A DNA stretch of 50,829 nucleotides from Ferrimicrobium sp. Its GTDB lineage: Bacteria > Actinomycetota > Acidimicrobiia > Acidimicrobiales > Acidimicrobiaceae. Within the stretch, counting starts at the first letter, position 1, and each line of letters starts with the position of its first letter. The notes beneath the pieces are model-generated. The model was not told where the DNA came from. It saw nothing but the letters and a program-made list of their open reading frames with translations, and searched no databases. The stretch lies in contig JALCZJ010000018.1 of assembly GCA_022690815.1 (NCBI GenBank), positions 1-50,829 of the forward strand, written 5' to 3'. Both the position numbers and the translations under genes were made by a program. This document shows positions 14,779 to 29,235 of this stretch, one piece after another.

Positions 14779-14807
14779 TTGTGGGGAGTTGTTACTATGG
14801 ACATAGT
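14779..14807 (+). promoter_or_regulatory. Candidate sufB promoter
   Basis: TTGTGG at 14779-14784 and CATAGT at 14802-14807 are 17 bases apart. The -10 box lies inside the inverted repeat at 14794-14807, so a protein bound there would block or recruit RNA polymerase. The sufB leader would be about 50 bases. Confidence 0.5.
14794..14807 (+). promoter_or_regulatory. SUF operator candidate, site 1 (sufB)
   Basis: ACTAT-GGAC-ATAGT, a near-perfect inverted repeat (ACTATG/CATAGT around GA). In reverse orientation it reads GCACTATGTCCATAGTAA and aligns with the sites before sufD (22745-22758) and sufC (26755-26768). The binding factor is unknown; a SufR- or Rrf2-type Fe-S sensor is the natural candidate. 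Confidence 0.6.
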
Positions 14808-14864
14808 GCAAATCGCGGATGTCAAGTGCGTCGGCGTGTATTGCAACACTGTGAAGGAGAAGCA

Positions 14865-16265
14865 ATGGCCTCTGTGGAACTTGATCTTGGGCGTTACAAG
14901 CTTGGCTGGTCAGACGTCGAGGACTACGTGTTCAAACCGAAGAAGGGACTCTCCAAAGAGATCGTTGAAGAGATGTCTCGGATCAAGGGTGAGCCCGAAT
15001 GGATGCGTCAGTTCAGGCTGAAGGCCCTCGAGCACTTCATGCGTCGCCCAATGGCTCCATGGTTTGCGGTAAATATGCCGGACCTGGATTTCGATGACAT
15101 CTATTATTACGTCAAGCCGACCGATCACCAGGTTGACAACTGGGATCAGCTTCCTCAGAACATGAAGGACACCTGGGACAAGCTGGGGATTCCGGAGGCG
15201 GAACGCAAGTACCTGGGCGGAGTAACCGCACAATATGAGTCCGAGGTTGTCTATCATCGCAACCGCGATGATCTCGCCAAGCAGGGTGTTCTCTTTACCG
15301 ACATGGACACCGCGTTGCGTGACTACCCCGAAATTGTCAAGAAGTATTTCGGTACCGTGATACCTCCCAACGACAACAAGTTCGCGGCGCTGAACTCGGC
15401 TGTGTGGTCCGGAGGATCGTTTATCTACGTGCCCAAGGGTGTCAAGCTCGAGATGCCGTTGCAGGCGTATTTCCGCATCAACTCCGAGAACATGGGTCAG
15501 TTCGAGCGCACGTTGATCATCGCGGATGAGGGTTCGCAAGTGCACTATATCGAGGGATGCTCGGCGCCAGTGTATTCGACAGACTCGCTGCACTCGGCGG
15601 TGGTTGAACTCATCGCGTTGCCGGGATCGCGTATCACCTACACGACTATTCAGAACTGGTCATCGAACGTCTACAACCTCGTGACGAAACGAGCGCGTGC
15701 CGAGGCCGAAGCTCGCGTGGAGTGGATCGACGGCAACATCGGCTCGAGATTGACGATGAAGTATCCGTCGGTCTATCTGATGGGCCCGAAGGCATCGGGC
15801 GAGGTGCTTTCAGTCGCCTATGCTGGCGCTGGTCAGCATCAAGATGCTGGTGCGAAGATGATTCACGCTGCGCCCGAGACCACGTCCACGATCGTATCGA
15901 AGTCCATCTCCAAAGACGGAGGTATCACGACCTACCGTGGTCTGGTGCATATGGACGAAGGGGCGAAGAACTCGCGGTCGTTTGTCCGCTGCGATGCCCT
16001 GTTGCTCGACGACCACTCCATCTCCGAGACCAAGCCATACATGGAGATCGGTGAACGCAATGCCTGGGTTGGTCATGAAGCCACGGTTTCTAAGGTGGGT
16101 GAAGATCAACTGTTTTATCTGATGAGTCGTGGCCTGTCGGAGGCTCAGGCGATGAGTCTCATCGTCAATGGATTTATCGAGCCGGTTACGAGAACCCTGC
16201 CGATGGAGTACGCGGTTGAGTGGTCACGGCTTATCGAACTCCAGATGGACGGTTCGATTGGGTAA
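14865..16265 (+). CDS. sufB: Fe-S cluster assembly scaffold subunit SufB
   Basis: 466 residues. ATG 14865 has AAGGAGA four bases upstream; the in-frame upstream frame to 14781 is not needed. SufB with SufD and SufC forms the SufBCD scaffold on which Fe-S clusters are built. Visible signatures: [31 protein letters not shown], the beta-helix core, IEGCSAP with a conserved Cys at about 232, [11 protein letters not shown] with Cys about 376, and [23 protein letters not shown] near the C-terminus. Length is typical. Unlike most actinobacterial clusters, it is not followed by sufD, which lies 6.6 kb away after genes on the other strand. It carries its own promoter with the shared operator. Confidence 0.97.
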
Positions 16266-16868
16266 ATCGATCCGCTACGTCCCTGCTAGACGCCGACCGA
16301 GAGGTAGGCGAAGCCAAGGTCGGTCGACTCGCTGTTGGTGATGCATGGGTCTGTGTGCGTCGCCAATGGAGGGTGGTCTCAAAAAGCGATGCGGGTCCCA
16401 AAGGACTATGCCTTGTAGCCAGGTGGGTAGTTATTCGTCTTGAGCTGTGCGGATGTTGTCGTTACGGGGCTTGTCCATACTCGTTCCCTGTTGGGCTTTG
16501 AGCGTGACTGGTAGGCTTTGGTGTCGATATGGCTTAGCCTCATGTGTAGTGCGTGTCCTGCACCATCGAAACGTTGTTGGGGTACGCAGGAGGACTCGTC
16601 ATCCACGGGTATTCGCTACGAGCTGATTGATCCTGGCTACCCGGCATCCACCACCCCATACCAATAACAAACAGCTCTGGCCATCAATGCTCAGGCTGGA
16701 GTCGTTGTGACAACTGTTGTGGGGTCGAAGAGTCAACGCTGTGTCGAGCGTGGAGCGCAACAACTGAGCGATTCACCTTCTAAGGGCAAAACCATAGACA
16801 AGAGCAACCGAGAGTGGTCAGAGTCGATGGGGGCGATATGTTCTAGACAGCGAAAATTGATGAGAGGA
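16266..16868. other. Intergenic region downstream of sufB, no gene seen
   Basis: About 600 bases. Short frames on both strands have no ribosome sites or protein-like composition. I see no strong terminator, RNA gene or mobile-element terminus. It marks the breakpoint between sufB and the inserted opposite-strand block. Confidence 0.5.
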
Positions 16869-17039
16869 TCAGCGGGTCTGATCCTTGGTGGCATACTTGT
16901 AGCCAAGCCAACCGCCGGCGGCAGCACCGACCACGAGACCGATTGGTCCGGCCACCAAGGTCCCAATGACCGCCACAACGGCTCCCGCACCAACCGTTTT
17001 GCCAACCATGGCTGATCCACGATTCGAATAGCTGCTCAC
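16869..17039 (-). CDS. Small glycine-zipper membrane protein
   Basis: 56 residues if started at GTG 17039, which has AAAGGTGG four bases upstream; a longer version from 17066 is possible. The text GKTVGAGAVVAVIGTLVAGP IGLVVGAAAGGWLGYKY is one long Gly/Ala/Val membrane-compatible segment with small-residue spacing like glycine-zipper proteins, ending in a short charged tail. Such proteins often pack tightly in membranes or act as envelope-stress proteins. Function unknown. It lies downstream of the histidine kinase on the same strand, about 200 bases away. Confidence 0.55.
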   Translation of the reverse strand: MSSYSNRGSAMVGKTVGAGAVVAVIGTLVAGPIGLVVGAAAGGWLGYKYATKDQTR

Positions 17040-17244
17040 AACGCCACCTTTCACTGCTGACTGCACCTGTCATGCTACTCGCTAGCTGGTGCTTCGATCA
17101 CATTTCGAATTTCAGCAGATTCCTCGCTCCACACTCTCTGATGCGAATCCAATCATCATTGGTGGGTTGAGGGCTTGGAAAGATTGCTGGCCAAGATCGG
17201 GTCACCTTGGCGCTGTGATCCGATTGTGTGATCTGATGCGATAT

Positions 17245-18879
17245 TCAGTCTGATTTGGTTCGATCTCGTCTCGATCCAATTCGCCAGGGTGTACTGTTGC
17301 GCGCCGTTGTCTCGACTGGGGAGGTGGTGCCGTGTTGAGCGATGGCCTCGTCCCCAGTGTCCATCTCCAACATCGGGAGATCGACACCGAAGCAACTACC
17401 GCGCCCCAGGCCTGGACTCGCCACCCAAGCGGTTCCTCCATGGGCATGGGTGATGGCTGCCACCAGCGAAAGCCCGAGTCCAGCGCCCCCGCGGGATCGT
17501 GAGCGTGATTCGTCAGATCGATAGAAGCGCTCGAAGACGCGGTCCAGTTGTGCGCCTTCGAGTCCCGGACCGGTATCGCACACGGTAAGCCGAACCTTCC
17601 GATCCCACTCGAGCAGTGCGATCGTCTCGTCGGTGTTGCCAAACAGGTCAGCGATCTCCTTCGCGGTACGCGCTCCTGTGGGCAGTGGCGCCTGTTTTGG
17701 AGTGATCTCGACGCGAACGACGACGGTTGCGCTCGGAGGCGTATGGGTGCGTACATTTGAGAGCAGGTTGGTGATCACTTGGGTGAGGCGATGCTCGTCG
17801 CCAAGTACGAGAGCTTCTGGCGGTATCACGAGGTCAATCTTGCGCTCTGGTTCTACAGCGGCGGCGTCCATCACCGCCGCTTTGGCTAGCTTCGCCAGAT
17901 CGACTGGTGCCAGCGACAGTGGTCGATTTTCGTCCATGCGGGCCAGAAGCAGGAGGTCCTCGATGAGGGCGGCCATACGGCTAGCTTCTGATTGGATGCG
18001 CTCCATGGCCAGTGGCGTATCCTTCACTTGATCCAATGCGCCATCAAGATAGAGCTCTGCATAGCCCTTGATGCTGGTCAACGGTGTCCGCAGCTCATGA
18101 CTGACGTCAGCGATGAATTGGCGAAGCCGTGTTTGAGAGCCCTGAGAATTTGTGTAGGCGTCTTGCAGTCGTTCGAGCATGGTGTTTAACGTGTCGGCGA
18201 GGCTGGCAATCTCTTGTGGACCATCGTCGTCCACTCGTGCCATCGAATCGCCTGCAGTGATTCCTCGCGCTTGGGAGCGCATGCGCTCAAGTGGGCTTAG
18301 TCCGATCCGAATCGAGATTGCTCCAGCGAGCCCTAACGCTAAGAGCACACCCAAGGAGACAAAGAGCTCGGCAAGTTCCAGGCGACCCAAGGTGCTCGTA
18401 ACCGAGCTCAATGGGATGGATAAGATCATCGTTGCATCAAGAGCCGGGTCGCGAGCTGCGAGCACTCGATAGGAATAGTCTGATTTCGGCAGTTCGATCG
18501 TGATGGGATGTCCCACAGGGACGTCGACGCGCTGATCACCCGGCTTGCCACTGGCAACCGCTGGGGGAGGTTCGGAAACGGAGTTTGAGAACTGACCGAT
18601 GACGGATGTCCCGTTAGAGAAGATGAGTTCGCCGTAGCTACCCTGGGGCAGTGAGACGAGACCGGCGAAGGTCGAATCACCGTACACACTGGTGTGCAGC
18701 AGTTCCCTGGCGGCCAGTGGGATGTCGCTGGTGAGTTGGGAGTCGACGCGGGTTATGAGAAAAGAGCGGAGTGCTGTAACCGTCGTGAAGTCGATCGCCA
18801 AGGTGCCAACGACCAGTGTTGCGAGTGTGATGATTAGCAGCCGAGCTCGAAGGGAGAGTTTCGGTTTCGGTCTAGGCAC
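17245..18879 (-). CDS. Sensor histidine kinase (MprB-like)
   Basis: 544 residues. Two membrane helices (about 12-33 and 180-200) flank an extracytoplasmic sensor, followed by a HAMP linker, the dimerisation/H box DVSHELRTPLTSI with the phospho-accepting His, and the ATPase lobe with N box (ITNLLSNVRTHTP), G1 DTGPGLEG, F box FERFYR and G2 GGAGLGLSLV. It starts at GTG 18879, 17 bases after the response regulator stop, so the pair is an operon. The order htrA, regulator, kinase on one strand recalls mycobacterial mprA-mprB-pepD, an envelope-stress system; the equivalence is inferred from layout. An unusual insert lies between the N box and G1 (about residues 395-425). Confidence 0.88.
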   Translation of the reverse strand: MPRPKPKLSLRARLLIITLATLVVGTLAIDFTTVTALRSFLITRVDSQLTSDIPLAARELLHTSVYGDSTFAGLVSLPQGSYGELIFSNGTSVIGQFSNSVSEPPPAVASGKPGDQRVDVPVGHPITIELPKSDYSYRVLAARDPALDATMILSIPLSSVTSTLGRLELAELFVSLGVLLALGLAGAISIRIGLSPLERMRSQARGITAGDSMARVDDDGPQEIASLADTLNTMLERLQDAYTNSQGSQTRLRQFIADVSHELRTPLTSIKGYAELYLDGALDQVKDTPLAMERIQSEASRMAALIEDLLLLARMDENRPLSLAPVDLAKLAKAAVMDAAAVEPERKIDLVIPPEALVLGDEHRLTQVITNLLSNVRTHTPPSATVVVRVEITPKQAPLPTGARTAKEIADLFGNTDETIALLEWDRKVRLTVCDTGPGLEGAQLDRVFERFYRSDESRSRSRGGAGLGLSLVAAITHAHGGTAWVASPGLGRGSCFGVDLPMLEMDTGDEAIAQHGTTSPVETTARNSTPWRIGSRRDRTKSD

Positions 18880-18896
18880 AGTTCCCGGCTCGGATT

Positions 18897-19619
18897 TCAG
18901 GATTCGCGCGCCTCAGGCGCTCGTAGGCTGTAGCCAACACCCCTGATCGTTTTGATCATTGGCGGACCATACTGGTCGAGCTTCTTGCGCAGGTAGCTGA
19001 TGTAGGTTTCGACGATATTGGCATCGCCACCGAAGTCGTACTCCCAGACATGGTCGAGGATCTGTGTCTTGGAGACGACCTTGTTGGCATTAAGCATCAA
19101 AAAACGCAGCAACTTGAATTCGGTCGCAGTGAGCTCCACAGGCTTGCCGGCGCGGAGCACCTCGTGGGTTTCGTCATCTAACGTGAGATCGTGAAACGTC
19201 TGGCGAGAGACCTCGGCCGGTCCACCACCAGTTCTGCGCAGGACCGCCTCGATGCGCGCGGTGAGCTCGGCGAGCGAAAACGGCTTGGTGATGTAGTCGT
19301 CGGAGCCGAGTCGAAGGCCTTCGACGCGATCTTCGATGGAGTCACGGGCGGTTAGGAACAGGATGGGCGTGTCATCGCGCTCTTCGCGAAGTCGTTTGAC
19401 AACCTGAAAGCCGTCGAGGCCAGGCATCATGACGTCCAGGACAATAAGGTCGGGCCGAAACGATTTGGTCAGCTCCAATGCCTCGCGTCCGGAGGCAGCG
19501 ATGTTGACCTCGTAGCCTTCGAAGTTGAGTGCCATCTGGAGCAGCTCCGTTATGGGGAGCTCATCATCGACGACGAGCACGCGCTTGTCCTTCGATGGCC
19601 GTCCCTGTGTCGATGTCAT
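18897..19619 (-). CDS. OmpR-family response regulator (MprA-like)
   Basis: 240 residues from ATG 19619, with GGAGA 4 bases upstream; the longer in-frame extension to 19742 would run through the hairpin of htrA and is rejected. The receiver domain has the acidic pocket VVDDE, the phospho-accepting Asp in LIVLDVMMPG, the Thr of FLTARDS and the Lys of ITKPF. The C-terminal winged helix (ELTATEFKLLRFLM to IKTIRGVGYSLR) is OmpR/PhoB type. It is partner of the kinase that follows, and lies after htrA, separated from it by a strong hairpin. Confidence 0.93.
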   Translation of the reverse strand: MTSTQGRPSKDKRVLVVDDELPITELLQMALNFEGYEVNIAASGREALELTKSFRPDLIVLDVMMPGLDGFQVVKRLREERDDTPILFLTARDSIEDRVEGLRLGSDDYITKPFSLAELTARIEAVLRRTGGGPAEVSRQTFHDLTLDDETHEVLRAGKPVELTATEFKLLRFLMLNANKVVSKTQILDHVWEYDFGGDANIVETYISYLRKKLDQYGPPMIKTIRGVGYSLRAPEARES

Positions 19620-19706
19620 GCATTCTCCTTGCGTTGATGATAGCCGAGCAAGATCAACCGCTAAGCATCGAGGCTGATGCGGCGCAGTTGTGCACCGGTG
19701 AGCGCG

Positions 19707-19742
19707 ATGACACCGCCAACTGGGGGCGGTTGGCGGTGTCAT
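19707..19742 (-). terminator. Strong terminator hairpin after htrA
   Basis: A perfect 14-bp stem: ATGACACCGCCAAC at 19707-19720, loop of 8, GTTGGCGGTGTCAT at 19729-19742, starting about 31 bases beyond the htrA stop codon. There is no T run. It separates htrA from the regulator-kinase genes and probably reduces read-through. Confidence 0.8.
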
Positions 19743-19773
19743 TGGATTGATAACCGTGATGCGGTTTCGTCAT

Positions 19774-21366
19774 CTAAGCTGCTGGTGCGTTGCCTAGGGT
19801 GATGGTTAGGGTAGATATACCAGACTGAGATAGTACCTTGAGCGTTACTGATGCTCCGGGTGACTTCGAGGTGACGTCGGTGACAAGCTGCGATGCGTCA
19901 GTGACTGACTTTCCATCAAAGCCGATGATGACATCACCCGAGGTGAGGCCAGCATTCGATGCAGGGGACCCAGGGTAGATATAGTCGATCAGGGCCCCTT
20001 TCTGGTTCGTCGGATAGCCGAGCTGAGCGGCGGCCTGTGCATTCATGGTCTGGATGCCAACGCCAAGGAAGGCCTTGGCTGTCGTTGTACCATTTGATGA
20101 ACCCGATGACGACTTTGTGTAGTAGCTCGGATCCTTCAGGATGTGCTTGACCACCGGTAAGACCGAATCAATCGATTCGGCAAACCCGAGGTTCTGCGCT
20201 GGTGTCTGGGAGGTCGACGAGATAATAGCTGTATCCATGCCGACCACCTGACCGGCGGCGTTGACGAGCGGACCTCCGGAGTTACCAGGGTTGATAGGCG
20301 CATCCGTCTGGATCATCTGTGTCAGGTGCTCACTGAGGTTCTGATCTTGGGCGGTGATCGAACGGTTCAGCGCCGATACGATCCCCTGGGTAACCGTCGG
20401 GTCACCCTGGAGCGCCAACGCGTTGCCGATTGCCACGACTGGGTCCCCGACTTGGAGCTGCGCTGAGTTGCCGAACTTGACGGTCGGAAGGTTTGACAAC
20501 CCCTCAATCTGAAGCACCGCAACGTCGTGAGCGGGATCGGTGCCGATGACCTTGACTGGATAGGACTTGGACTGGTTATACAGCGTTGCCTGTACCGATG
20601 TCGCCCCAGCAATCACGTGGTTGTTGGTCAAGACGAGTCCACTCGAGCTAAAAATCATCCCAGTCCCAGCATCCTCAAACTGGCTGGTGCCGAGGAAACC
20701 ATTGTTCGTGGAACCTTCTGCCGTGATATCCACGACGGCTGGCTCGACTTTGGCCAGGATCTGGGGGACATTGAGACTGCCGTTCCCATTGAGTCCAGAC
20801 CCCTGAATCGATGTTGGAGATGCCGATGACTCGCTGATGACCACCGGCTTGGAATTGGACGAGTTGGTGAGGTGCACAACCGTGAAGCTGGTACCCACCG
20901 CTACCACCGCTGCGACCACTGCGGCAGTGAGAACCGTGAGTCCAGAGAACCGACGTTGTGAGAGTGACCCCCTGCTTTTGCCCTTCTTGGTGGTGCTCGA
21001 CGCCGGTGCAGACGGGGCCGGCGAGGTCCAGGACGAGGCGTATTCGTAGCCGGCGTAACCGGGCGAGGAGGTTGACGAAGGGCCCGAACCCCGAGTAGGA
21101 CCACCGACCCCACTGCCGTCTAGGTCGCCTTCGTTGGCCGGCACCGAATCATTCACCAGATTGCCGCCCGAGGCCAGCGTGTCGCCAGCAGACCATCCAT
21201 CACCAGAGGGCCATCCATCACCAATGGTCGCATCGTCACTCGTCGACCCTTGATCAGTGGGCCCTTGATCTGTCGGCGCAGCATCGCTAGGAATTTCTTG
21301 CGTCGGATCATCCCCGTTGGTGGGTTCTAACGAGTGCTCGTCTTCGGGAAACTCATTGTTATTCAT
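19774..21366 (-). CDS. HtrA-like membrane-anchored serine protease with PDZ domain
   Basis: 530 residues. A long acidic, Gly/Ser/Asp-rich cytoplasmic part (1-130) precedes one membrane helix (LTVLTAAVVAAVVAVGTSF), then a trypsin-like domain with His in LTNNHVI, Asp in DPAHDVAVLQI and Ser in NPGNSGGPL, then a C-terminal PDZ domain (AFLGVGIQTMN to VTLKVLSQSG). The family degrades or refolds damaged envelope proteins. The domain order equals mycobacterial PepD/HtrA. ATG 21366 follows AAAGG at 8 bases. Together with the two-component genes downstream it probably forms an envelope-stress module. Confidence 0.93.
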   Translation of the reverse strand: MNNNEFPEDEHSLEPTNGDDPTQEIPSDAAPTDQGPTDQGSTSDDATIGDGWPSGDGWSAGDTLASGGNLVNDSVPANEGDLDGSGVGGPTRGSGPSSTSSPGYAGYEYASSWTSPAPSAPASSTTKKGKSRGSLSQRRFSGLTVLTAAVVAAVVAVGTSFTVVHLTNSSNSKPVVISESSASPTSIQGSGLNGNGSLNVPQILAKVEPAVVDITAEGSTNNGFLGTSQFEDAGTGMIFSSSGLVLTNNHVIAGATSVQATLYNQSKSYPVKVIGTDPAHDVAVLQIEGLSNLPTVKFGNSAQLQVGDPVVAIGNALALQGDPTVTQGIVSALNRSITAQDQNLSEHLTQMIQTDAPINPGNSGGPLVNAAGQVVGMDTAIISSTSQTPAQNLGFAESIDSVLPVVKHILKDPSYYTKSSSGSSNGTTTAKAFLGVGIQTMNAQAAAQLGYPTNQKGALIDYIYPGSPASNAGLTSGDVIIGFDGKSVTDASQLVTDVTSKSPGASVTLKVLSQSGISTLTITLGNAPAA

Positions 21367-21719
21367 GGTGCGCGCCTTTCTCTCTACTCAGCTCGCCGTA
21401 CTCTGACCACGCGCCGTGGCTCTCGCGCGAGTTGAGGTTCAAAACCCAATGCACTAACTTTCTGTGATCCATTCTTATGTTCCATGCTTTGAGAAACCTT
21501 AGGAACAGGTAGGAGCTTGACGAATGGATGACAGCTCTCCTTCTCACGGTAGTGCCTTTTTCATGGTAATGGAGTGCGCCGGCAGTACCGTTCGATGTGC
21601 GATTCAACCAGACGGTCGAAGTGTCTTAAGTGTAATGCCCCACCACCTAAAGAATTGGGACGACAAAACCTAAGCATCCGACGATGCGAGCTGGTCTTTG
21701 CGTTGTGAGATGCTCGGGC
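21367..21719. other. Intergenic region upstream of htrA
   Basis: About 350 bases between htrA and the fragment at 21720. It should hold the htrA promoter, but I could not single out one box pair with confidence. The stretch around 21625-21650 (TTAAGTGTAATGCCCCACC) could be a mobile-element edge, since it directly follows the transposase-like tail; this is a guess. Confidence 0.35.
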
Positions 21720-21983
21720 CTAGGCGACCCTCTCTGCTGCGGTGACCTGGAATCCGAGAGCTTCAATCCGCTTGCTCAGTCGCTTTACCTGAACCGTTGG
21801 ATCGTCGTGGCTCTCGAAGTAATTGGCACCTGATTCTTCAGATGCACAAAGGATAGCACAAGCATTACCTGCATCTGTGGTGTGCGCTCGTTCATCAGGA
21901 CTAAGAGCTTGCTGGACTCTAGCGCCCTTGAAAACGTGGCTCTCGGTGCTCTTGAAGGGCCCGAAGTGCTTCGCGCGCGTCAT
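21720..21983 (-). pseudogene. Possible transposase C-terminal fragment
   Basis: The last 45 residues of this frame, reading ESGANYFESHDDPTVQVKRL then SKRIEALGFQVTAAERVA, resemble the tail of actinobacterial transposases, which often end with D-P-x-H-x-x-R-L-x-x-x-L-E-x-L-G-x-x-V-T. The part upstream of it overlaps the end of the crotonase gene and shows no resemblance. I read it as a remnant left by an insertion at the end of the crotonase gene. Assignment to a specific insertion-sequence family is not possible by eye. Confidence 0.35.
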
Positions 21984-22698
21984 CGGAGCGCATCAAAGCG
22001 ACATTTGCCTCAGCTGCGCGAGCGAGTTGCGTGCCGAGGCGCTCTCGGCGCTCGCTGACAAGCAATCGTTTCGTCGCCTGCACGGCGAGTGGAGGATTCG
22101 CGGCAAGCCTGTTGGCAAGTCCTAAAGTGGCAGCTTCGAGGGCTTGGAGCGAAGGGTGCACTGATTGCACGAGGCCGAGCTGTTTGGCCTCGCCAGCGGT
22201 GATATCGCGACCGGTGAGTGCGATCTCTGCTAATGTGGAGTAGGTCAGAACGTCAGCTAGCAAGCTCAGCGATCCAAGGTCGGCAACGATTCCGATTCGG
22301 ACCTCGCGGAGAGAGAAGATCGCGGTCTGTGATGCCAGACGCCAATCGCACGCAGCAGCCAAATCAAGGCCTCCCCCGATGCAGTAACCATGGACCGCGG
22401 CCAATGTGGGCTTGCTCACGGTGGCGAGCGATGCGAATCCACGTTGGAGGGGTTCGATGTCGTCGGCGGTCTTGACGGCTTGTGATCCAGGTGCCATCTC
22501 ATGCAGATCCAGTCCGGCACTAAAGTGGGGACCGTTCGCACGGACGATGATTACTCGTGTCGCTGGATCGTGCTCCAAGGTCTCGATCGCTTGCGGCAAC
22601 TCCTCGAAGAACATAGCATTCATGGCGTTGAGCTTGGATGGTCGGTTGAGCGTCAGCTCGCTGATCCCGTTATTGGTCGTGATTGTCAACGTCTCCAT
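21919..22698 (-). CDS. Enoyl-CoA hydratase/isomerase (crotonase family)
   Basis: 259 residues from ATG 22698, with GGAGA 5 bases upstream. LNRPSKLNAMNAMFFEEL, the oxyanion-hole pair in FSAGLDLHEM and VHGYCIGGGLDLAAACDWRLA, and IGIVADLGSLSLL identify a crotonase fold. The position that is normally Glu in hydratases (G-x-x-P-D-x-G-x-x) reads GIVADLGS, with the Asp typical of dienoyl-CoA isomerase-like or other crotonases, so the reaction may be isomerisation rather than hydration. It is divergent from sufD and shares the intergenic region that contains operator site 2. Its 3' end overlaps a transposase-like fragment. Confidence 0.85.
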   Translation of the reverse strand: METLTITTNNGISELTLNRPSKLNAMNAMFFEELPQAIETLEHDPATRVIIVRANGPHFSAGLDLHEMAPGSQAVKTADDIEPLQRGFASLATVSKPTLAAVHGYCIGGGLDLAAACDWRLASQTAIFSLREVRIGIVADLGSLSLLADVLTYSTLAEIALTGRDITAGEAKQLGLVQSVHPSLQALEAATLGLANRLAANPPLAVQATKRLLVSERRERLGTQLARAAEANVALMRSDDAREALRALQEHREPRFQGR

Positions 22699-22744
22699 CG
22701 ATGTCTCCTGTCGGTGTCGCTTCGGGGGATTCTCCCAGATTAGC

Positions 22745-22758
22745 ACTATGCTGATAGG
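22745..22758 (+). promoter_or_regulatory. SUF operator candidate, site 2 (sufD)
   Basis: ACTAT-GCTG-ATAGG within TTAGCACTATGCTGATAGGG. It matches site 3 before sufC at GCACTAT and GATAGGGT and site 1 in reverse. It lies in the divergent region between the crotonase and sufD, about 160 bases before the sufD start, so it could also affect the crotonase. Confidence 0.6.
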
Positions 22759-22881
22759 GTAAACCATGACGCCGGGCGATCGCTAATCTGTAGTGCTCGT
22801 GAGGGCGGTACCCAGAAGGGCTTTGCTCGTGGGATTAACGCCCACAGAGTCGAGCTTGCTGGGTTTGGTTCGGGTGGCGGT

Positions 22882-22935
22882 ATGGAAACAGCGTTTGCAA
22901 TTGAACGAAGGAGAACGTGTGGGGTCCTTAGGTGA
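22882..22935 (+). CDS. Possible 17-residue leader peptide overlapping the sufD start
   Basis: An ATG at 22882 opens an 18-codon frame (17 residues: METAFAIERRRTCGVLR and stop) that overlaps the first codons of sufD in another frame. Its stop is 15 bases past the sufD GTG. Such an arrangement could couple or attenuate sufD translation. The frame is short enough to be chance, and only a modest purine stretch (GGTGGCGG) precedes it. Confidence 0.2.
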   Translation: METAFAIERRRTCGVLR

Positions 22936-24118
22936 GGATGTAGCTTGGCAATTGCCGGTTCGAAGCACGGCGAGAGCTGCCGAGATGGGGCGGCTGGAGC
23001 GACCGACTGAGGCGCTTGAGTGCTGGCGATACTCTCCAATTGATGACGTCCAATGGGACCGGTATCAGGGTTCGGGTATCGAGAGCGATGAAGCTCTTTG
23101 GTCGCGAGCGACTGAGATGCTCGCGACCTTCGGCCCTATGGATAGCGTCATTCGGATCGATGGGGGCCACCTCGTGGATATCGACTCCCACTCCGATGGG
23201 GTCATGGCTGTGGAGGTTCAAGCCATTGGGGAGTTTCTCCGCCAAGCGGATGAGAGCCTGTTGTCGCTGACCACGCTGCTTGCACCGGGTCGACTGGAGG
23301 TCAACCTCGACACATCCGTGCATCGCATTGGCATCATCACCTGCGGCAGCGGTGCCGATGCTGGGCTCTGGAGCTGGCTTCGGATATCGGTTGCGCCAGG
23401 CGCGAGCGTGGAGATCATCCAGATTGACCTTCTGAGCGGATCGGTGCTGCATGCTCCCGTCATTGAGATCTTCGGTGGCGAGAAGGCGTCGATTACCTAT
23501 CGACAGCAGCTCGATCACGATCGGCAGGCACTGAGCTTGGGCTATGTAAGGTTCCGATTAGGCGCCGATGCGCGGCTTGAGATCGATACGGCGAGTACCC
23601 ATCAGGGCTACACCCGGGTTCGCACCGACGGTACGCTCCAAGGCGCCCGCGCCAGTGCCGTCATCAGGGTTGGCTACGTGGTGGGCGCCGCAGAGCGGGT
23701 CGATTATCGGACTTTCATCACGCATGATGCACCGCGCACGAAGAGCGATTTGCTCTACAAGGGGGTGGTCAATGGCGATGGTAGCTCGATTTACACTGGC
23801 ACCATCACCATCACGCCGCTTGGAGGAGGCTCTGAAGCCTTCCAGACGAACCGGAATGTGCTGCTCTCCGAGGAGGCGCTCGCTTGGTCGGTCCCCAACC
23901 TTGATATCCAAATTAGCGATGTGAAATGCTCTCATGCCTCCACCGTTGGACCGATCGACGAAGAGCAGCTGTTTTATCTTGCATCCAAGGGCTTCCCGGC
24001 CGAGGAGGCACGCCGGACGCTGGCTCGGGCATTCTTTGCTGATATGGGTGATGATTTCGCCGTGGAACAACGATCCTTGCGCGCGGCGGTGGATGAAAAG
24101 TGGGAGTCGGGTCAATGA
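22919..24118 (+). CDS. sufD: Fe-S cluster assembly protein SufD
   Basis: 399 residues if started at GTG 22919, which has a near-perfect AAGGAGA four bases upstream, the same arrangement as sufB; in-frame starts back to 22793 lack a ribosome site. The beta-helix core of SufB/SufD is present, with the typical C-terminal block NRNVLLSEEALAWSVPNLDI, then DVKCSHASTVGPIDEEQLFYL and ASKGFPAEEARRTLARAFF, where the conserved His of the SufD interface lies. SufD pairs with SufB and SufC in the scaffold. The stop TGA overlaps the next start (ATGA), so the Rieske gene is coupled. Confidence 0.95.
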   Translation: MGSLGEDVAWQLPVRSTARAAEMGRLERPTEALECWRYSPIDDVQWDRYQGSGIESDEALWSRATEMLATFGPMDSVIRIDGGHLVDIDSHSDGVMAVEVQAIGEFLRQADESLLSLTTLLAPGRLEVNLDTSVHRIGIITCGSGADAGLWSWLRISVAPGASVEIIQIDLLSGSVLHAPVIEIFGGEKASITYRQQLDHDRQALSLGYVRFRLGADARLEIDTASTHQGYTRVRTDGTLQGARASAVIRVGYVVGAAERVDYRTFITHDAPRTKSDLLYKGVVNGDGSSIYTGTITITPLGGGSEAFQTNRNVLLSEEALAWSVPNLDIQISDVKCSHASTVGPIDEEQLFYLASKGFPAEEARRTLARAFFADMGDDFAVEQRSLRAAVDEKWESGQ

Positions 24119-24459
24119 CTGAATCTGTGGGAGTATCCGGGGACTTTGAAGAGGGAAAGGCCGTCAAGGTCGACTTCGCCGGCTTCCCGGTGGTAGTTGT
24201 GCGAATCGATGGCGAACTCTTCGCCATTGGAGACACATGCTCGCATGCTAAGTACAGCCTTTCCGAGGGGGAAGTGTACGCCGAGGAGCGAGAGATCGAG
24301 TGTTGGAAGCATGGTAGCACGTTTTCACTAAGAGATGGACATCCGACGTGTTTCCCAGCTACGAAGGCTGTTCCGGTGTTCGATGTTGCTGAGCGCGATG
24401 GGGTGGTACTCCTCAGTCGTTCAGAGGATGACACAATTGATGCGAAGCGAGGTAGATAA
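24115..24459 (+). CDS. Rieske-type [2Fe-2S] ferredoxin in the SUF operon
   Basis: 114 residues. ATG 24115 overlaps the sufD stop as ATGA. The Rieske motifs are CSHAKYS and CWKHGS, giving two Cys and two His for a [2Fe-2S] cluster; the spacing equals dioxygenase-type Rieske ferredoxins. A Rieske ferredoxin gene beside sufD is known in actinobacterial SUF operons such as those of Streptomyces. It may deliver electrons for cluster assembly; the precise role is not established. It is followed by the second sufC-like gene after four bases. Confidence 0.93.
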   Translation: MTESVGVSGDFEEGKAVKVDFAGFPVVVVRIDGELFAIGDTCSHAKYSLSEGEVYAEEREIECWKHGSTFSLRDGHPTCFPATKAVPVFDVAERDGVVLLSRSEDDTIDAKRGR

Positions 24460-24463
24460 ACCA

Positions 24464-25204
24464 GTGACACTGTTATCGGTCAGGGATCTTCACGTATCTA
24501 TCGGAGCTACGCAGGTGTTGGCAGGGATAGATCTTCACATCGATTCCGGCGAGGTTGTCGCGGTCATGGGACCGAATGGATCCGGCAAGAGTACGTTGGT
24601 GTCGACAATTATGGGGCGTCCGAGCTATGTGGTCGACCACGGCGCTATTGAGATCGACGGCAAGCCTATCGCCGACTGGTCTACCGACCAACGAGCCCGT
24701 AGTGGCCTCGCGCTCATCTCGCAAAGCCAGCCCGAGATCCCAGGGGTGCGCGTCGATGAGCTGGTCACCTCCATGTATCGCTTCCGCGACCTCGATGCCC
24801 AACAGGTATCTGAGCGTATTACTTCGGAGGCGCGTGATCTATCCCTCGATGAGAAGCTACTCAATCGTTGGGTTAATGTTGACCTCTCTGGGGGCGAGCG
24901 CAAGAAGCTCGAGACGCTGCTCGTTAGCGCAGTTCCCGAGTCACTGGTAATTGGTGATGAGATCGATTCGGGTCTTGACATCGATGCCCTACGTGACGTG
25001 GCGCGTCGACTTCGGAGGTTGAACGAGGAGCAAGGAACAGCGCTGCTCCTCATCACCCACTATCCGCGGCTGTTGCGAGAGATACGTGCAGATCGGGTTC
25101 TCGTGTTGGTGCGGGGAAAGATCGTTGCTGAAGGCGGCATGCACCTAGCGGTCGAGCTTGAGAGCACTGGCTACCAACGCTTTGGAGTAGATGCCATAAG
25201 CTGA
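24464..25204 (+). CDS. SufC-like ABC ATPase, divergent paralogue
   Basis: 246 residues from GTG 24464 (TLLSVRDLHVSIG is the normal SufC opening; GAGGT lies upstream); an in-frame ATG at 24440 is an alternative. It has Walker A GPNGSGKS, the SufC-type EIPGV after the Q-loop, signature LSGGERKKLE, Walker B ending in GDEIDSGLDIDAL, and H-loop ITHYPRLL. It is clearly of the SufC subfamily. It differs from the other SufC in the window: the Q-loop region is LALISQSQPEIPGV instead of the usual FLAFQYPEEIPGV, and LVIGDE replaces LAILDE. Being in the sufD-Rieske operon, it may be the SufD partner or a specialised copy. Confidence 0.9.
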   Translation: MTLLSVRDLHVSIGATQVLAGIDLHIDSGEVVAVMGPNGSGKSTLVSTIMGRPSYVVDHGAIEIDGKPIADWSTDQRARSGLALISQSQPEIPGVRVDELVTSMYRFRDLDAQQVSERITSEARDLSLDEKLLNRWVNVDLSGGERKKLETLLVSAVPESLVIGDEIDSGLDIDALRDVARRLRRLNEEQGTALLLITHYPRLLREIRADRVLVLVRGKIVAEGGMHLAVELESTGYQRFGVDAIS

Positions 25205-25212
25205 GCCATGTC

Positions 25213-25341
25213 ATGGTCTTAGTGATGGATCCGGCCTGTCGCTGTGGCCACTATCAACGGTTCTGTTGTAGCTGTGGTAAAGAGATTGGGCTTTGCTCTT
25301 ATCAAAGGGCGACGGTAGCGCGCTCACACATCGTTCGTTAG
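25213..25341 (+). CDS. Possible Cys-rich small protein (42 residues)
   Basis: ATG 25213, just after the second sufC stop, opens a 42-residue frame with six Cys in 20 residues: ACRCGHYQRFCCSCGKEIGLC. The C-x-C, CC-x-C and C spacing resembles a zinc ribbon or small metal-binding protein. A second Met at 25225 is possible. There is no clear ribosome site, and its end overlaps the convergent reductase gene by 18 bases, so it may be a chance frame. If real, it would be a fourth gene of the sufD block. Confidence 0.35.
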   Translation: MVLVMDPACRCGHYQRFCCSCGKEIGLCSYQRATVARSHIVR

Positions 25342-26472
25342 CGACGAGATGATTCGCTCTCGTATCGTTGTGAGCGCTTCAGCTGCATCGATAAGCACAG
25401 CCCCCTCGAGGCGCTCGCCGCGGTAATACAGGAAGCATCGTCCACCCTCGACAGGCTCCTCGACTTCGAGGAGGTCGGGACTCGGCAAGCCGAGGATCTG
25501 GATCAAGAGCCCACCCTGGTCGCTCCAGCCAAAGGGGAGCTCTTCGTAGGGTGTGCGCTGATTTCCAAACAATGCTGCAACGGCGTGCATTGCCTGGTTG
25601 GTGGCGACCTCAAAGTGCTCGAAGCGCAACGGACGTTGATACAGAGGGTGATACCAGCTCGCGACGTCACCGATGGCCGAGATCGACTCGAAGCCCTCCA
25701 CCAGTCCATGCTGAGTGACGGCTATCCCACCGTCATCGTTGACGGGGAGTGCGCCGTCGAGCCATTCGATCGTCGGAATCACTCCAACTCCGACGACGAT
25801 GAGATCCGTTTCCCATGCTTGGGAGCCATCGTTGACCAGCATTCGTAGCCCGTCATGTACTTGGGTGGCCTCGTGGCCAGTGACCAGAGTGACGCCCTCG
25901 TGTCGCAAATGCTCCTCGACGAGGTTGCTGACGCTACGACCCACGGCGCGCGACAGCAGGTGAGGAAGTTGCTCGACGAGTGTGACGTCGATGTGATGAT
26001 GGCGGGCACTCATCGCGACTTCTGCACCGATGAAACCACCTCCGATAATGGTGAGGTGGCGAATGTGCCCAAATGCATCTCGAATTCTGGTCGCATCTAC
26101 GAGCGTCCGTAGATAGATAATCTCTTCGCTCGGCGGGAAGGCATCGAGGTGTCTGGGGTGGGCGCCGGTGGCGACGATGAGTTGGTCAAATGGCTCGACG
26201 TCATGATCGGCGGTGACCTCGCGACGGTCGAGATCAAGGTCGGTGGCTGCTGTGAGTGCTCGAAACCGATAGCCCTCAGCTGCGCCACGCAGTTGGACTC
26301 GGTTAGCAGATACCGTACCCATGAGGTACCCTTTCGAGAGTGGCGGACGCTGGTAGGGAAGCTCGCGCTCGGCGCCGAGCACCGTGATATCGAGATCGGG
26401 CCGAAGGCGCCGCGCCTGCACGGCTGCTCGGTGGCCAGCCAACGCCCCTCCAACGATGACCAGTCTGCCCAC
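25324..26472 (-). CDS. FAD-dependent ferredoxin reductase-like oxidoreductase
   Basis: 382 residues. FAD site LVIVGGALAGHRAAVQARRL, then ELPYQRPPLSKGYL, the ATGAHPR strand, NAD-binding LTIIGGGFIGAEVAMSARHH, and the second FAD motif SISAIGDVASW. These belong to the BphA4/CamA-type NAD(P)H:ferredoxin reductase family. GTG 26472 lies four bases after the ferredoxin stop codon, so both are co-translated. Together they form an electron-transfer pair, normally serving P450s or oxygenases; none is in the window. Lying between sufC-like genes on the opposite strand, it may serve Fe-S assembly or be an insertion. Confidence 0.9.
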   Translation of the reverse strand: MGRLVIVGGALAGHRAAVQARRLRPDLDITVLGAERELPYQRPPLSKGYLMGTVSANRVQLRGAAEGYRFRALTAATDLDLDRREVTADHDVEPFDQLIVATGAHPRHLDAFPPSEEIIYLRTLVDATRIRDAFGHIRHLTIIGGGFIGAEVAMSARHHHIDVTLVEQLPHLLSRAVGRSVSNLVEEHLRHEGVTLVTGHEATQVHDGLRMLVNDGSQAWETDLIVVGVGVIPTIEWLDGALPVNDDGGIAVTQHGLVEGFESISAIGDVASWYHPLYQRPLRFEHFEVATNQAMHAVAALFGNQRTPYEELPFGWSDQGGLLIQILGLPSPDLLEVEEPVEGGRCFLYYRGERLEGAVLIDAAEALTTIRERIISSLTNDV

Positions 26473-26476
26473 GTTG

Positions 26477-26668
26477 CTAGTCGTTCACGCTGATCGCCTG
26501 GGTGGGGCACTGCGCCTGCGCTGCAAGGACACTCGCATGCACGTCTTCGGGTGGGTTTTCATTCAAGATGTAGAGGAAGCCATCCTCTCGAATCTCGAAT
26601 ACCGATGGTGCAAGACCTTCGCAGACTGCATTGGACTGACATTTGTCGAAATCAACTTCGATACGCAT
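26477..26668 (-). CDS. 3Fe-4S-type ferredoxin (P450-partner-like)
   Basis: 63 residues; ATG 26668 has GGAGA 7 bases upstream. Only three cluster Cys are present: CQSNAVC (C-x5-C) and a later CP in AQCPTQAI, the pattern C-x2-x-x2-C..CP of actinobacterial 3Fe-4S ferredoxins. The residue at the variable position is Asn instead of the Cys or His found in many relatives; such variation is known to tune potential in mycobacterial members. It probably passes electrons from the reductase to an unknown acceptor. It shares a divergent promoter region with sufC. Confidence 0.9.
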   Translation of the reverse strand: MRIEVDFDKCQSNAVCEGLAPSVFEIREDGFLYILNENPPEDVHASVLAAQAQCPTQAISVND

Positions 26669-26754
26669 GGTCGATCTCCTTCGCTAGGCACACGCAGTTA
26701 AATCTAACCGACCTCGCGTGCTACTTAAGCCTCGAGTCGTGCTTGGCCAATTGC

Positions 26755-26768
26755 ACTATTGCGATAGG
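26755..26768 (+). promoter_or_regulatory. SUF operator candidate, site 3 (sufC)
   Basis: ACTAT-TGCG-ATAGG within TTGCACTATTGCGATAGGG. It overlaps the candidate -35 of sufC, so it is placed to control sufC-sufS-sufU and perhaps the divergent ferredoxin. Confidence 0.6.
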
Positions 26769-26786
26769 GTTAATTCCCACTAGACT
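26759..26786 (+). promoter_or_regulatory. Candidate sufC promoter (leaderless)
   Basis: TTGCGA at 26759-26764, 16 bases, TAGACT at 26781-26786, then six bases to GTG 26793. There is no Shine-Dalgarno, so the sufC mRNA probably starts at or near its start codon. The same TAGACT-N6-GTG is found before the ATP-grasp gene at 33867. Confidence 0.55.
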
Positions 26787-26792
26787 GTGCTC

Positions 26793-27548
26793 GTGACAGT
26801 TGAACCGTTGTTTGAGGCTCAAGACCTGTGGGTATCCGCTGCGGGCACGACGATCTTGAAGGGATTTTCGCTCTCCGTCGCTCCTGGCGAGTTGCATGTG
26901 ATCATGGGACCGAATGGATCCGGCAAATCGAGCTTCGCGAACGCGATCATGGGTAGTAGTGAGTACCAGATCGACCGCGGCCATGTGCTGTTCAAGGGTA
27001 TTGATATCGGTGGACTTCCGGTGGATGAGCGAGCCAAAGAGGGGATCTTCCTCGCCTTCCAGTATCCCGAGGAGATCCCAGGTGTGTCGGTTATTCAGTT
27101 TCTCAGACAGGCCTTGCAAGCTCGGCGGGGTACCGACGTGTCCGTCATCGAGGTTCGCTTCGATCTCCTCGAGTGGCTTGAACGGCTTGGGCTCGACCCT
27201 TCATTCGCCTCAAGGCACCTCAATGAGGGGTTCTCTGGTGGTGAGAAGAAGCGTAATGAGATCATTCAGATGGCGATGATGCAGCCTGAACTAGCTATCT
27301 TGGACGAGACCGATTCTGGTCTTGACATCGATGCACTGAAAACCGTCGCCAATGGCATCGAGACGGTGCGTGAAGCGAATCCGGAGATGGGGGTGGTCCT
27401 AATCACCCATTACCAGCGTATTTTGAGCTGGCTTACCCCGACTCTGGTGCACGTAGCCGTCGACGGTCGCATTGTTGGATCGGGAGGCATGGAGTTGGTG
27501 GAGGATCTTGAGCGAGAGGGTTATCAGAAGTGGCGAGTGTTGAAGTAG
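26793..27548 (+). CDS. sufC: Fe-S cluster assembly ATPase SufC
   Basis: 251 residues from GTG 26793, chosen because TAGACT lies exactly six bases before it (leaderless). Canonical SufC: Walker A GPNGSGKSS, FLAFQYPEEIPGVSV, signature FSGGEKKRNEIIQM, Walker B ILDETDSGLDIDAL, H-loop ITHYQRIL, C-terminal EREGYQKW. Its ATPase activity drives rearrangement of SufB/SufD during cluster formation. It overlaps sufS by 19 bases. It starts the third suf block, sufC-sufS-sufU, after the opposite-strand ferredoxin genes. Confidence 0.96.
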   Translation: MTVEPLFEAQDLWVSAAGTTILKGFSLSVAPGELHVIMGPNGSGKSSFANAIMGSSEYQIDRGHVLFKGIDIGGLPVDERAKEGIFLAFQYPEEIPGVSVIQFLRQALQARRGTDVSVIEVRFDLLEWLERLGLDPSFASRHLNEGFSGGEKKRNEIIQMAMMQPELAILDETDSGLDIDALKTVANGIETVREANPEMGVVLITHYQRILSWLTPTLVHVAVDGRIVGSGGMELVEDLEREGYQKWRVLK

Positions 27549-28780
27549 CAAATCTGGCTAGTGAGTTGCGTAAGGATTTTCCGATCTTTGCCGATATTGA
27601 GTCATCTCGGCCTTTCTACTATTTGGACTCTGCGGCATCGTCGCAGCGGCCGGTTTCTGTGCTCGATACCATGGATCGCTATTATCGGCATTCTCATGCC
27701 AACGTCCATCGAGGTGTTTACGGTCTCGCCGAGGAGGCGACCGGCATCTACGAGGCTGCCCGCAAGCACCTCGGAACCTTTATCGGCGCTAGCGATCCCG
27801 CGCACGAGATCGTCTTTACCAAGAACGCCACGGAAGCCCTCAATCTTGTGGCTCAGGGTTTGGGTCGCGTTGTCTTGACGCCTGAGAGCCACGTCCTCCT
27901 GACGGAGATGGAGCATCACGCCAACCTCGTCCCGTGGATGATCTTGCAACAACAGATCGGTTTTACCGTCGATTATTTGCCACTCGATGCCGAGGGTCTA
28001 CTGGTGCTCGACAATCTTGATGCGCTCTTGGACCGTGCGAGCATCCTCGGGGTCACGCTGATGTCGAACGTTCTCGGTACGCTGAATCCTGTCGCCATGT
28101 TGAGCCGCAAAGCGCATGAGCACAATGTGATTGTCGTCGCCGATGGAGCCCAGTTTGTCCCCCATTTTAGGACCGACGTTGGTGAGCTTGGAGTTGATTG
28201 TCTCGCGATCACTGGGCACAAGATGCTTGCACCGACCGGTATTGGGGCGCTCTGGGCGCGAGCGGAGATCCTCAACAAGATGATTCCGTTTCTCGGTGGT
28301 GGAGAGATGATCAGTGACGTCAGGCTCGATGGGTTCACGGCCAACGAGATCCCCCACAAGTTTGAGGCAGGCACCCCGCCGATCGCAGAGGCGGCGGGGT
28401 GGGATGCTGCACTTGGCTATCTCGAGGCGGTCGGGATGGACGCCATCAGTGCACATGACCGGGCGCTAACGAGCTATGCGATCGACCAGCTCCATGATCG
28501 GCTCGGCGAGCGTATCAAGATTTTTGGGCCGGGTGATATCACGAAACGAGGAGGGGTCATCTCCTTCGAGCTGGCTGATGTTCATCCCCATGACGTCGCC
28601 CAAGTGCTGGACCAACATGGTGTCTGTGTTCGTGCAGGGCACCATTGTGCCAAGCCGTTGATGCGTGAACTCGGTGTGGGCGCGACGGCCCGCGCGTCGT
28701 TTTATCTTTACAATGACGAACGTGATGTCGAGGCGCTGGTCGTGGGGCTCCTCGATGCCTACCAGATGTTTCACGGTTAG
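27530..28780 (+). CDS. sufS: Cysteine desulfurase SufS
   Basis: 416 residues. GTG 27530 lies inside the end of sufC; GAGAGGG is upstream. PLP-dependent enzyme that takes sulfur from cysteine for Fe-S assembly. It shows YYLDSAASSQRP, HANVHRGVYGLA, TEMEHHANLVPW, ITGHKMLAPTG with the PLP lysine at about 231, and RAGHHCAKPLM with the persulfide-forming Cys at about 373. Group II desulfurase, typical length. It acts with SufU, next in the operon. Confidence 0.96.
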   Translation: MASVEVANLASELRKDFPIFADIESSRPFYYLDSAASSQRPVSVLDTMDRYYRHSHANVHRGVYGLAEEATGIYEAARKHLGTFIGASDPAHEIVFTKNATEALNLVAQGLGRVVLTPESHVLLTEMEHHANLVPWMILQQQIGFTVDYLPLDAEGLLVLDNLDALLDRASILGVTLMSNVLGTLNPVAMLSRKAHEHNVIVVADGAQFVPHFRTDVGELGVDCLAITGHKMLAPTGIGALWARAEILNKMIPFLGGGEMISDVRLDGFTANEIPHKFEAGTPPIAEAAGWDAALGYLEAVGMDAISAHDRALTSYAIDQLHDRLGERIKIFGPGDITKRGGVISFELADVHPHDVAQVLDQHGVCVRAGHHCAKPLMRELGVGATARASFYLYNDERDVEALVVGLLDAYQMFHG

Positions 28781-28788
28781 GAGTGATG

Positions 28789-29235
28789 ATGAACGATCTT
28801 GACGACCTTTATCGGGAGATTATCCTCGATCACTACAAGAATCCCCGGAACCAGGGGGTTCTTGAGGGCCCGACGGTGCACAGTGAGGAGGGTTTTAACC
28901 CACTGTGTGGGGATGAAGTGAAGATTTACATCCAAGTCGAAGATGGGGTGGTCGCTGACATCAAAATTACCGGGCAGGGGTGTTCCATCTCCCGGTCCTC
29001 GGCCTCATTGATGTCACAAGCGGTCAAGGGACAGCCGGTTGATGAGGTGAGAGCAATCGTCCATCGTTTCAAACGAATGATTGCCGTAGAAGAATCACCG
29101 GTGGAGCCTGAGCCTGTGGATCTGCGAAAGATCGGAGAGCTTGCGGCGCTTCAGGGTGTCGTTAAGTTCCCGGTTCGGATCAAGTGCGCGACGCTGCCCT
29201 GGAACACGCTGATGCTCGCGTTGGACGAGTCGTAA
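28789..29235 (+). CDS. sufU: SufU zinc-dependent sulfurtransferase
   Basis: 148 residues; ATG 28789 is chosen from three tandem starts because TAGGAG is at 5-base spacing. DLYREIILDHYKNPRNQG, NPLCGDEV, GQGCSISRSS and IKCATLPW give the three Cys and the Asp that bind zinc in SufU, which accepts persulfide from SufS. The insertion KRMIAVEESPVEPEPVDLRK typical of SufU relative to IscU is present. In many actinobacteria a sufT-like gene follows; none is here. Confidence 0.95.
   Translation: MNDLDDLYREIILDHYKNPRNQGVLEGPTVHSEEGFNPLCGDEVKIYIQVEDGVVADIKITGQGCSISRSSASLMSQAVKGQPVDEVRAIVHRFKRMIAVEESPVEPEPVDLRKIGELAALQGVVKFPVRIKCATLPWNTLMLALDES

Follow-up and report, generated by a model that had tools for sequence, protein, structure and literature searches.

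The analysed window, a stretch of 50,829 nucleotides from Ferrimicrobium sp. (assembly GCA_022690815.1, contig JALCZJ010000018.1), carries genes of the SUF system of iron-sulphur (Fe-S) cluster assembly in several places, and one inverted-repeat motif of 14 nucleotides recurs in front of sufB, sufD and sufC. The present analysis concerns this motif, its surroundings and its candidate regulator, a SufR-like protein encoded outside the window. The gene calls for sufB, sufD and sufC were confirmed by Pfam, and that for sufC also by NCBIfam. Judging from gene order, the genes probably form three units on the same strand, sufB, sufD-Rieske-sufC1 and sufC2-sufS-sufU, with one motif copy per unit (Table 1). 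The sufC1 and sufC2 products share approximately 40% identity; the presence of two SufC paralogues within one SUF system is, to our knowledge, unusual. The gene order sufD-Rieske-sufC1 was also observed in two relatives (L250, L255). The host bacterium probably oxidises iron.

When read in aligned orientation, the motif copies were GCACTATGTCCATAG before sufB (minus strand), GCACTATGCTGATAG before sufD (plus strand) and GCACTATTGCGATAG before sufC (plus strand), and all three lay exactly where the original prediction had placed them. The exact form GCACTAT-N4-ATAG was present at three sites in the 2,544,086 bases of the genome, all of them at suf units, and its reversed control gave one site. 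The looser pattern MCTAY-N4-RTAGK matched 11 sites, three of them at suf, compared with 51 for the reversed control, and is thus rare for its letters. Taking the eight non-suf sites as the background, the Poisson probability of three matches in 3 x 300 bp was about 4e-9. Outer TT/AA flanks were found at the suf sites only, complete at sufB and sufD and partial at sufC. The eight other sites (five within open reading frames of at least 120 amino acids and three in gaps, with one falling within a LysR-type gene) were considered as additional regulon members and dropped; none of them carried the flanks (0/8), and no further member is therefore claimed. The likeness of the three gaps had been predicted to exceed chance, with a random density across the genome named as the contrary outcome, and the strict motif was indeed not randomly distributed. 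Scanning with up to two mismatches, the check that had been proposed, was uninformative in the window and would have misled, as it yielded 61 matches versus 49.7 expected and no signal. A one-mismatch scan of the genome gave 15 matches versus 26 in the control. The overlap of the motif with predicted promoter elements, the -10 of sufB and the -35 of sufC, is plausible by eye.

Table 1. The suf units of the window, their operators and the sufR-like gene pair outside the window.
Feature	Position	Strand	Basis and remarks
sufB operator, 24-bp palindrome TTTGCACTATGTCCATAGTAACAA	14789..14812	-	core 14794-14807; covers -10-like TACTAT (14793-14798, by eye)
sufB	14865..16265	+	Pfam SUFBD_core and SufBD_N
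operator of sufD-Rieske-sufC1 unit TTAGCACTATGCTGATAGGGTAAA	22740..22763	+	core 22745-22758; genome scan, flanks, relatives
sufD	22799..24118	+	Pfam SUFBD_core; start codon uncertain (22793 or 22799)
small Rieske-type [2Fe-2S] protein	24115..24459	+	Pfam Rieske, E 1.8e-18; overlaps sufD stop codon
sufC1 (second SufC)	24464..25204	+	NCBIfam sufC equivalog, 239.1 bits (cut-off 212.8); start inferred
operator of sufC2-sufS-sufU ATTGCACTATTGCGATAGGGTTAA	26750..26773	+	core 26755-26768; overlaps probable -35
sufC2, GTG start, probably leaderless	26793..27548	+	NCBIfam sufC equivalog, 303.8 bits; Pfam; promoter by eye (TTGCGA 26759-26764, 16-bp spacer, TAGACT 26781-26786)
sufS cysteine desulfurase	27530..28780	+	Pfam Aminotran_5
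sufU	28783..29235	+	Pfam NifU_N
divergent pair, sufR-like and Mrp/ApbC-type genes	L297: 1363-2340, 2420-3535	-, +	contig C34 of the window's genome

The conservation of the motif before suf genes of relatives, on which the prediction also depended, was assessed at the level of the family and beyond. In the window's own genus (g1, seven genomes), all 11 matches to the exact motif lay before sufB, sufC or sufD. Only one of the 15 matches in the other genera of the family was located at suf, the remainder being judged to be chance, which indicated that the motif had drifted; it was therefore generalised to the core CTAY-N4-RTAG. The family sets comprised the best-scoring 30 of 37 sufB, 30 of 40 sufC and 30 of 35 sufD places, with seven loci of each set derived from g1, and a wider stretch was scanned at sufD because its start was poorly aligned. 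The core was present upstream of sufB in 29/30, of sufC2 in 25/30 and of sufD in 14/30 of these loci, and 13 of the 14 sufD sites had T and A at the positions 10.5 bases to either side of the centre. The best independent permuted half-site reached a count of two in each set, and other spacer lengths gave five at most. The permuted half-sites CYAT and YTAC are not independent controls, as they contain the CTAT and CTAC of the motif; the CYAT counts of 18, 16 and 4 (sufB, sufC2 and sufD) include the motif's own CTAT sites. With an asymmetric search pattern, the controls roughly equalled the signal in the matches listed, and its sole use was to point to candidate locations. Of the locations inspected away from suf, several fell within genes of unrelated function and were set aside as chance matches, and others preceded sufR.

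A similar picture emerged from a set of named loci that comprised the 80 best of 118 matches related to the window sufC (1,170,923 bases), mostly titled as metagenome-assembled Acidimicrobiia or Actinomycetes and in two cases as Acidobacteriota, and that overlapped in part with the family set. The core occurred within 260 bp of sufC2 in 61/80 loci and was absent from 19/80, and the full operator with TT and AA preceded sufC2 in 58/80. Outside the sufC2 regions of the same loci, 18 cores and seven full forms were found, and each of the seven full forms preceded sufD or sufB. The motif is real and conserved, and its observation is stronger than first stated.

A motif match in G116, another genome of the order, was located 28 bp before the gene of a winged-helix protein, next to a gene encoding a NifS-like cysteine desulfurase. 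This protein exceeded the Pfam cut-off for HTH_20, an ArsR/DeoR-like N-terminal winged helix. The window's genome contains a single gene of this type (C34:10722-11348), whose product exceeded the cut-offs for HTH_20 (E 1.7e-7) and MetOD1. Counting weaker paralogues, homologues were detected at E up to 1e-6 in 36/42 family genomes; the gene was present in 108/148 genomes of the order (E up to 1e-20). All 60 scanned proteins contained a C-x12-C pair followed by a third cysteine, the last two cysteines being separated by 32 residues in 54 proteins, 33 in four, 31 in one and 29 in one; the three cysteines were invariant in 43/43 aligned sequences. The protein was homologous along most of its length to actinomycete genes located before sufB, namely a Nonomuraea gene adjoining sufB (hhalign, E 3e-16 over 204 columns, a single comparison), whose record is unannotated and whose SufR label was assigned in this analysis, and a Tsukamurella gene directly before sufB (BLASTP, E 8e-9, a single comparison). 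Both genes encode C-x12-C-x27-C, as counted by eye. The G116 protein scored 25.2 bits against SufR_cyano (TIGR02702), below its cut-off of 178.8 bits; the Nonomuraea and Tsukamurella proteins (78.7 and 66.2 bits) also remained under this cut-off. Owing to the profile comparison and the cysteines, the protein of the window's genome was called SufR-type; on sequence grounds, it is a SufR homologue that lies outside the NCBI SufR equivalog. No solved structure related to it by sequence was found. In the predicted model (predicted local distance difference test score, pLDDT, of 75 and predicted template modelling score of 0.54 overall), the winged helix was mostly above pLDDT 90 and the C-terminal half was less certain. 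The best structural matches of the model were ArsR-like regulators; matches to TRAPP, BcsD and PoxR, presumably made by the predicted C-terminal half, are weak leads. The sufR-like gene was divergent from a gene for an Mrp/ApbC-type Fe-S carrier in 28/30 family loci; the remaining two loci were truncated by the end of a contig. This P-loop carrier belonged to the Pfam NUBPL iron-transfer family (E 4e-87) and scored 242 bits against NCBIfam ApbC, under the cut-off of 348.

Site columns from the relatives defined the operator as a 24-bp dyad, TTtcCMCTAY-N4-RTAGKGgaAA, with a constant spacer of four. The outer flanks, which had no part in the core pattern used to find the sites, were nearly invariant: T at -10.5 was present in 87/88 sites at sufC2 and 50/50 at sufR, and A at +10.5 in 86/88 and 48/50, respectively. 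Both flanks were complete in 78/127 sufC2 regions and 47/102 sufR regions. The distance from the operator to the start codon ranged from -122 to -10 at sufR and from -124 to -26 at sufC2. The sufR upstream set drew on 102 of the 108 order genomes in which the gene was present; the remaining six either were family members that had been examined before or were truncated at the gene, and one of the 102 regions spanned only 75 bp. The core lay within 260 bp of the sufR-like gene in 50/102 genomes (including G116, the route by which the regulator was reached), with CTAY at -30 to -24 in 24 of the 50, and 47 of the 50 core sites carried the TT/AA flanks. Independent permuted half-sites gave four at most and overlapping ones 11; a control with an 8-bp spacer reached 37 because RTAGGTAG is repeated. 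From the consensus RTAGGTAGAA at these sites, the box probably overlaps the -10 of sufR. Within the family, it preceded the sufR-like gene in 10/30 loci, which belonged to the genera g3 (three loci) and g8 (seven loci).

The operator and the regulator gene also co-occurred across the order. A window-type sufC was present in 127/148 genomes, of which 96 contained the sufR-like gene and 31 lacked it; the sufC2 core (within 260 bp) was found in 83/96 of the former and 5/31 of the latter (Fisher test 9e-13, a value inflated by kinship). At the level of families, the box was present in at least one genome in 32/35 families in which all genomes had the regulator and in 3/8 families in which none did. 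Seven families were mixed: f16, f24 and f30 comprised genomes lacking both elements alongside genomes with both, f1 and f28 had one genome each with the box and without the regulator, and f20 and f23 had the regulator and no box. As a separate observation, the 16 genomes examined in the families f31, f33, f46 and f49 had a window-type sufC but lacked both the regulator (E up to 1e-20) and a core box in front of this sufC.

The SufR proteins of Actinomycetes (M. tuberculosis Rv1460, Streptomyces avermitilis and Corynebacterium glutamicum) have the same winged helix, three C-terminal cysteines and suf targets. In Rv1460, the cysteines are C203, C216 and C244, i.e., C-x12-C-x27-C (PMC6034842); the order of the cysteines is kept in the proteins studied here, whereas the spacing between the last two is longer. 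The SufR operator in Actinomycetes is located at the regulator's own promoter and overlaps the -10 (PMC11995493); here, the core box was found at the regulator gene in the above half of the order genomes (50/102) and not in the window's genus. The operator itself differs: the reported SufR boxes are CAAC-N6-GTTG in cyanobacteria and Streptomyces and GAAC-N6-GTTG in Corynebacterium (PMC8593673 and PMC11995493), and CAAC-N6-GTTG was found in 0/127 sufC2 and 0/102 sufR upstream regions of the order genomes. The recognition-helix segment was LHPNVARHHLDKL in most of the proteins examined here, compared with LTPAAVRRHLDAL in Nonomuraea. Moreover, the actinomycete gene heads the suf operon, whereas the gene described here is divergent from an mrp-like gene and its putative targets are three separate units. 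Cyanobacterial SufR represses suf and itself through a palindrome in suf promoters and does so in its holo-form (PMC8593673), a behaviour that by analogy may apply here; it differs in its C-x12-C-x13-C-x14-C arrangement and in its CAAC-N6-GTTG box, and the present proteins fall far under the cut-off of its model. IscR, RirA and other Rrf2 regulators are alike in the Fe-S-sensing control of cluster assembly genes and belong to a different protein family. A literature search for SufR with Acidimicrobi, or for Ferrimicrobium with suf and iron-sulfur cluster, returned no paper; it covered openly licensed papers only and is a weak negative.

The Rrf2/IscR family offers the other obvious class of sensor that might read the operator. 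IscR-like regulators govern cluster assembly genes in other bacteria (PMC8593673), and the window's genome encodes two genuine Rrf2 members over the Pfam cut-off, one on contig C20 (151 amino acids), of a type present in 37/42 family genomes, and one on C4 (284 amino acids). An order-wide association as strong as that of SufR may also exist for them. The evidence from their own upstream regions argued against such a role: the core was present before the C20-type gene in 5/30 loci examined, in none of the five with TT/AA flanks, and the best match near the C4 gene had four mismatches over 14 fixed positions, whereas the operator was found before the sufR-like gene. We consider it unlikely that an Rrf2 protein is the reader. 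Apart from this question, the C4 protein (L017, 1051-1905, minus strand) was seen to contain C-x6-C-x5-C-x2-H (by eye) and an additional C-terminal part of approximately 150 residues in which Pfam detected no domain at E up to 0.1, and in genus g3 (L342, L345, L348 and L354) a palindrome CGGCTAC-N4-GTAGCCG, with flanks different from those of the suf operator, was located at about -14 before an Rrf2 gene.

The palindrome could alternatively be a core-promoter or mRNA element common to suf genes, such as an extended -10/-35 or a leader hairpin, and its overlap with -10- and -35-like sequences at sufB and sufC is in keeping with this. At sufR and sufC2, however, its spacing from the start codon is highly variable, and neither the constant spacer and near-symmetric 24-bp dyad nor the way in which it tracks the presence of the regulator gene fits such an element, which makes this explanation very improbable. 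Chance likeness among the three gaps, for which only the two-mismatch counts could be cited, is scarcely credible in view of the strict motif being confined to suf genome-wide, the Poisson estimate and the recurrence across the order; it is refuted by the conservation of the motif. It is highly probable that the motif is a new operator through which a diverged SufR-type repressor controls a dispersed SUF regulon. The original idea that the three blocks have an operator in common, recognised by an Fe-S sensor that is different or diverged, with no sufR or rrf2 gene in the window, is thereby supported, and the likeliest sensor would be the SufR homologue on C34 and not an Rrf2 protein.

Several results weigh against this interpretation of a SufR-type repressor. 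The protein of the window's genome was not matched by SufR_cyano at E values up to 0.001, and the gap to the scores of the actinomycete SufRs indicates that the window-type protein is more distant. In the window's genus, and likewise in five of the family's seven other genera, no operator was found before the sufR-like gene. The core was absent before sufC2 in 4/4 sampled genomes of genus g4 and before sufD in 16/30 family loci. A total of 13 genomes with the regulator lacked the sufC2 core and five without the regulator had it, some maybe due to assembly gaps; in family f20, all the genomes with the regulator (G060, G099, G129 and G176) lacked the core, and the operator may have changed again there. 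Finally, among the candidate sensors, the co-occurrence test covered SufR only.

According to the favoured SufR-type model, the repressor would consist of an ArsR-like winged helix and a C-terminal domain in which the three invariant cysteines probably hold an Fe-S cluster. The protein, presumably a dimer, would bind the 24-bp palindrome over the promoters of sufB, sufD-Rieske-sufC1 and sufC2-sufS-sufU and, in many relatives, over the promoter of its own gene. Control by repression at the promoter is favoured because the operators overlap -10- and -35-like sequences at sufB and sufC2 and probably the sufR -10 in relatives. When clusters are plentiful, the holo-protein would repress the suf units, an assumption carried over from the cyanobacterial work (PMC8593673), and the units would be released jointly when iron is short or the cluster is lost through oxidation. 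A single trans-acting sensor could in this way keep the scattered suf genes in step.

The order of Actinomycetota concerned includes iron-oxidising acidophiles. For the Acidimicrobiia as a whole, we lean towards a separate SufR-like lineage in which the 24-bp operator has replaced CAAC-N6-GTTG, whose gene, divergent from an Mrp-type carrier, would control a scattered two-SufC/Rieske regulon in trans, and in which several families jointly lost or altered the operator and its regulator. A search by the canonical SufR box would miss the suf regulon here. The analysis yields a testable answer, in that it names a single candidate gene for the regulator, defines the operator exactly and assigns three units as putative targets, and, if the proposed history is true, the families with joint loss or change would provide a natural series for the co-evolution of a repressor and its site.

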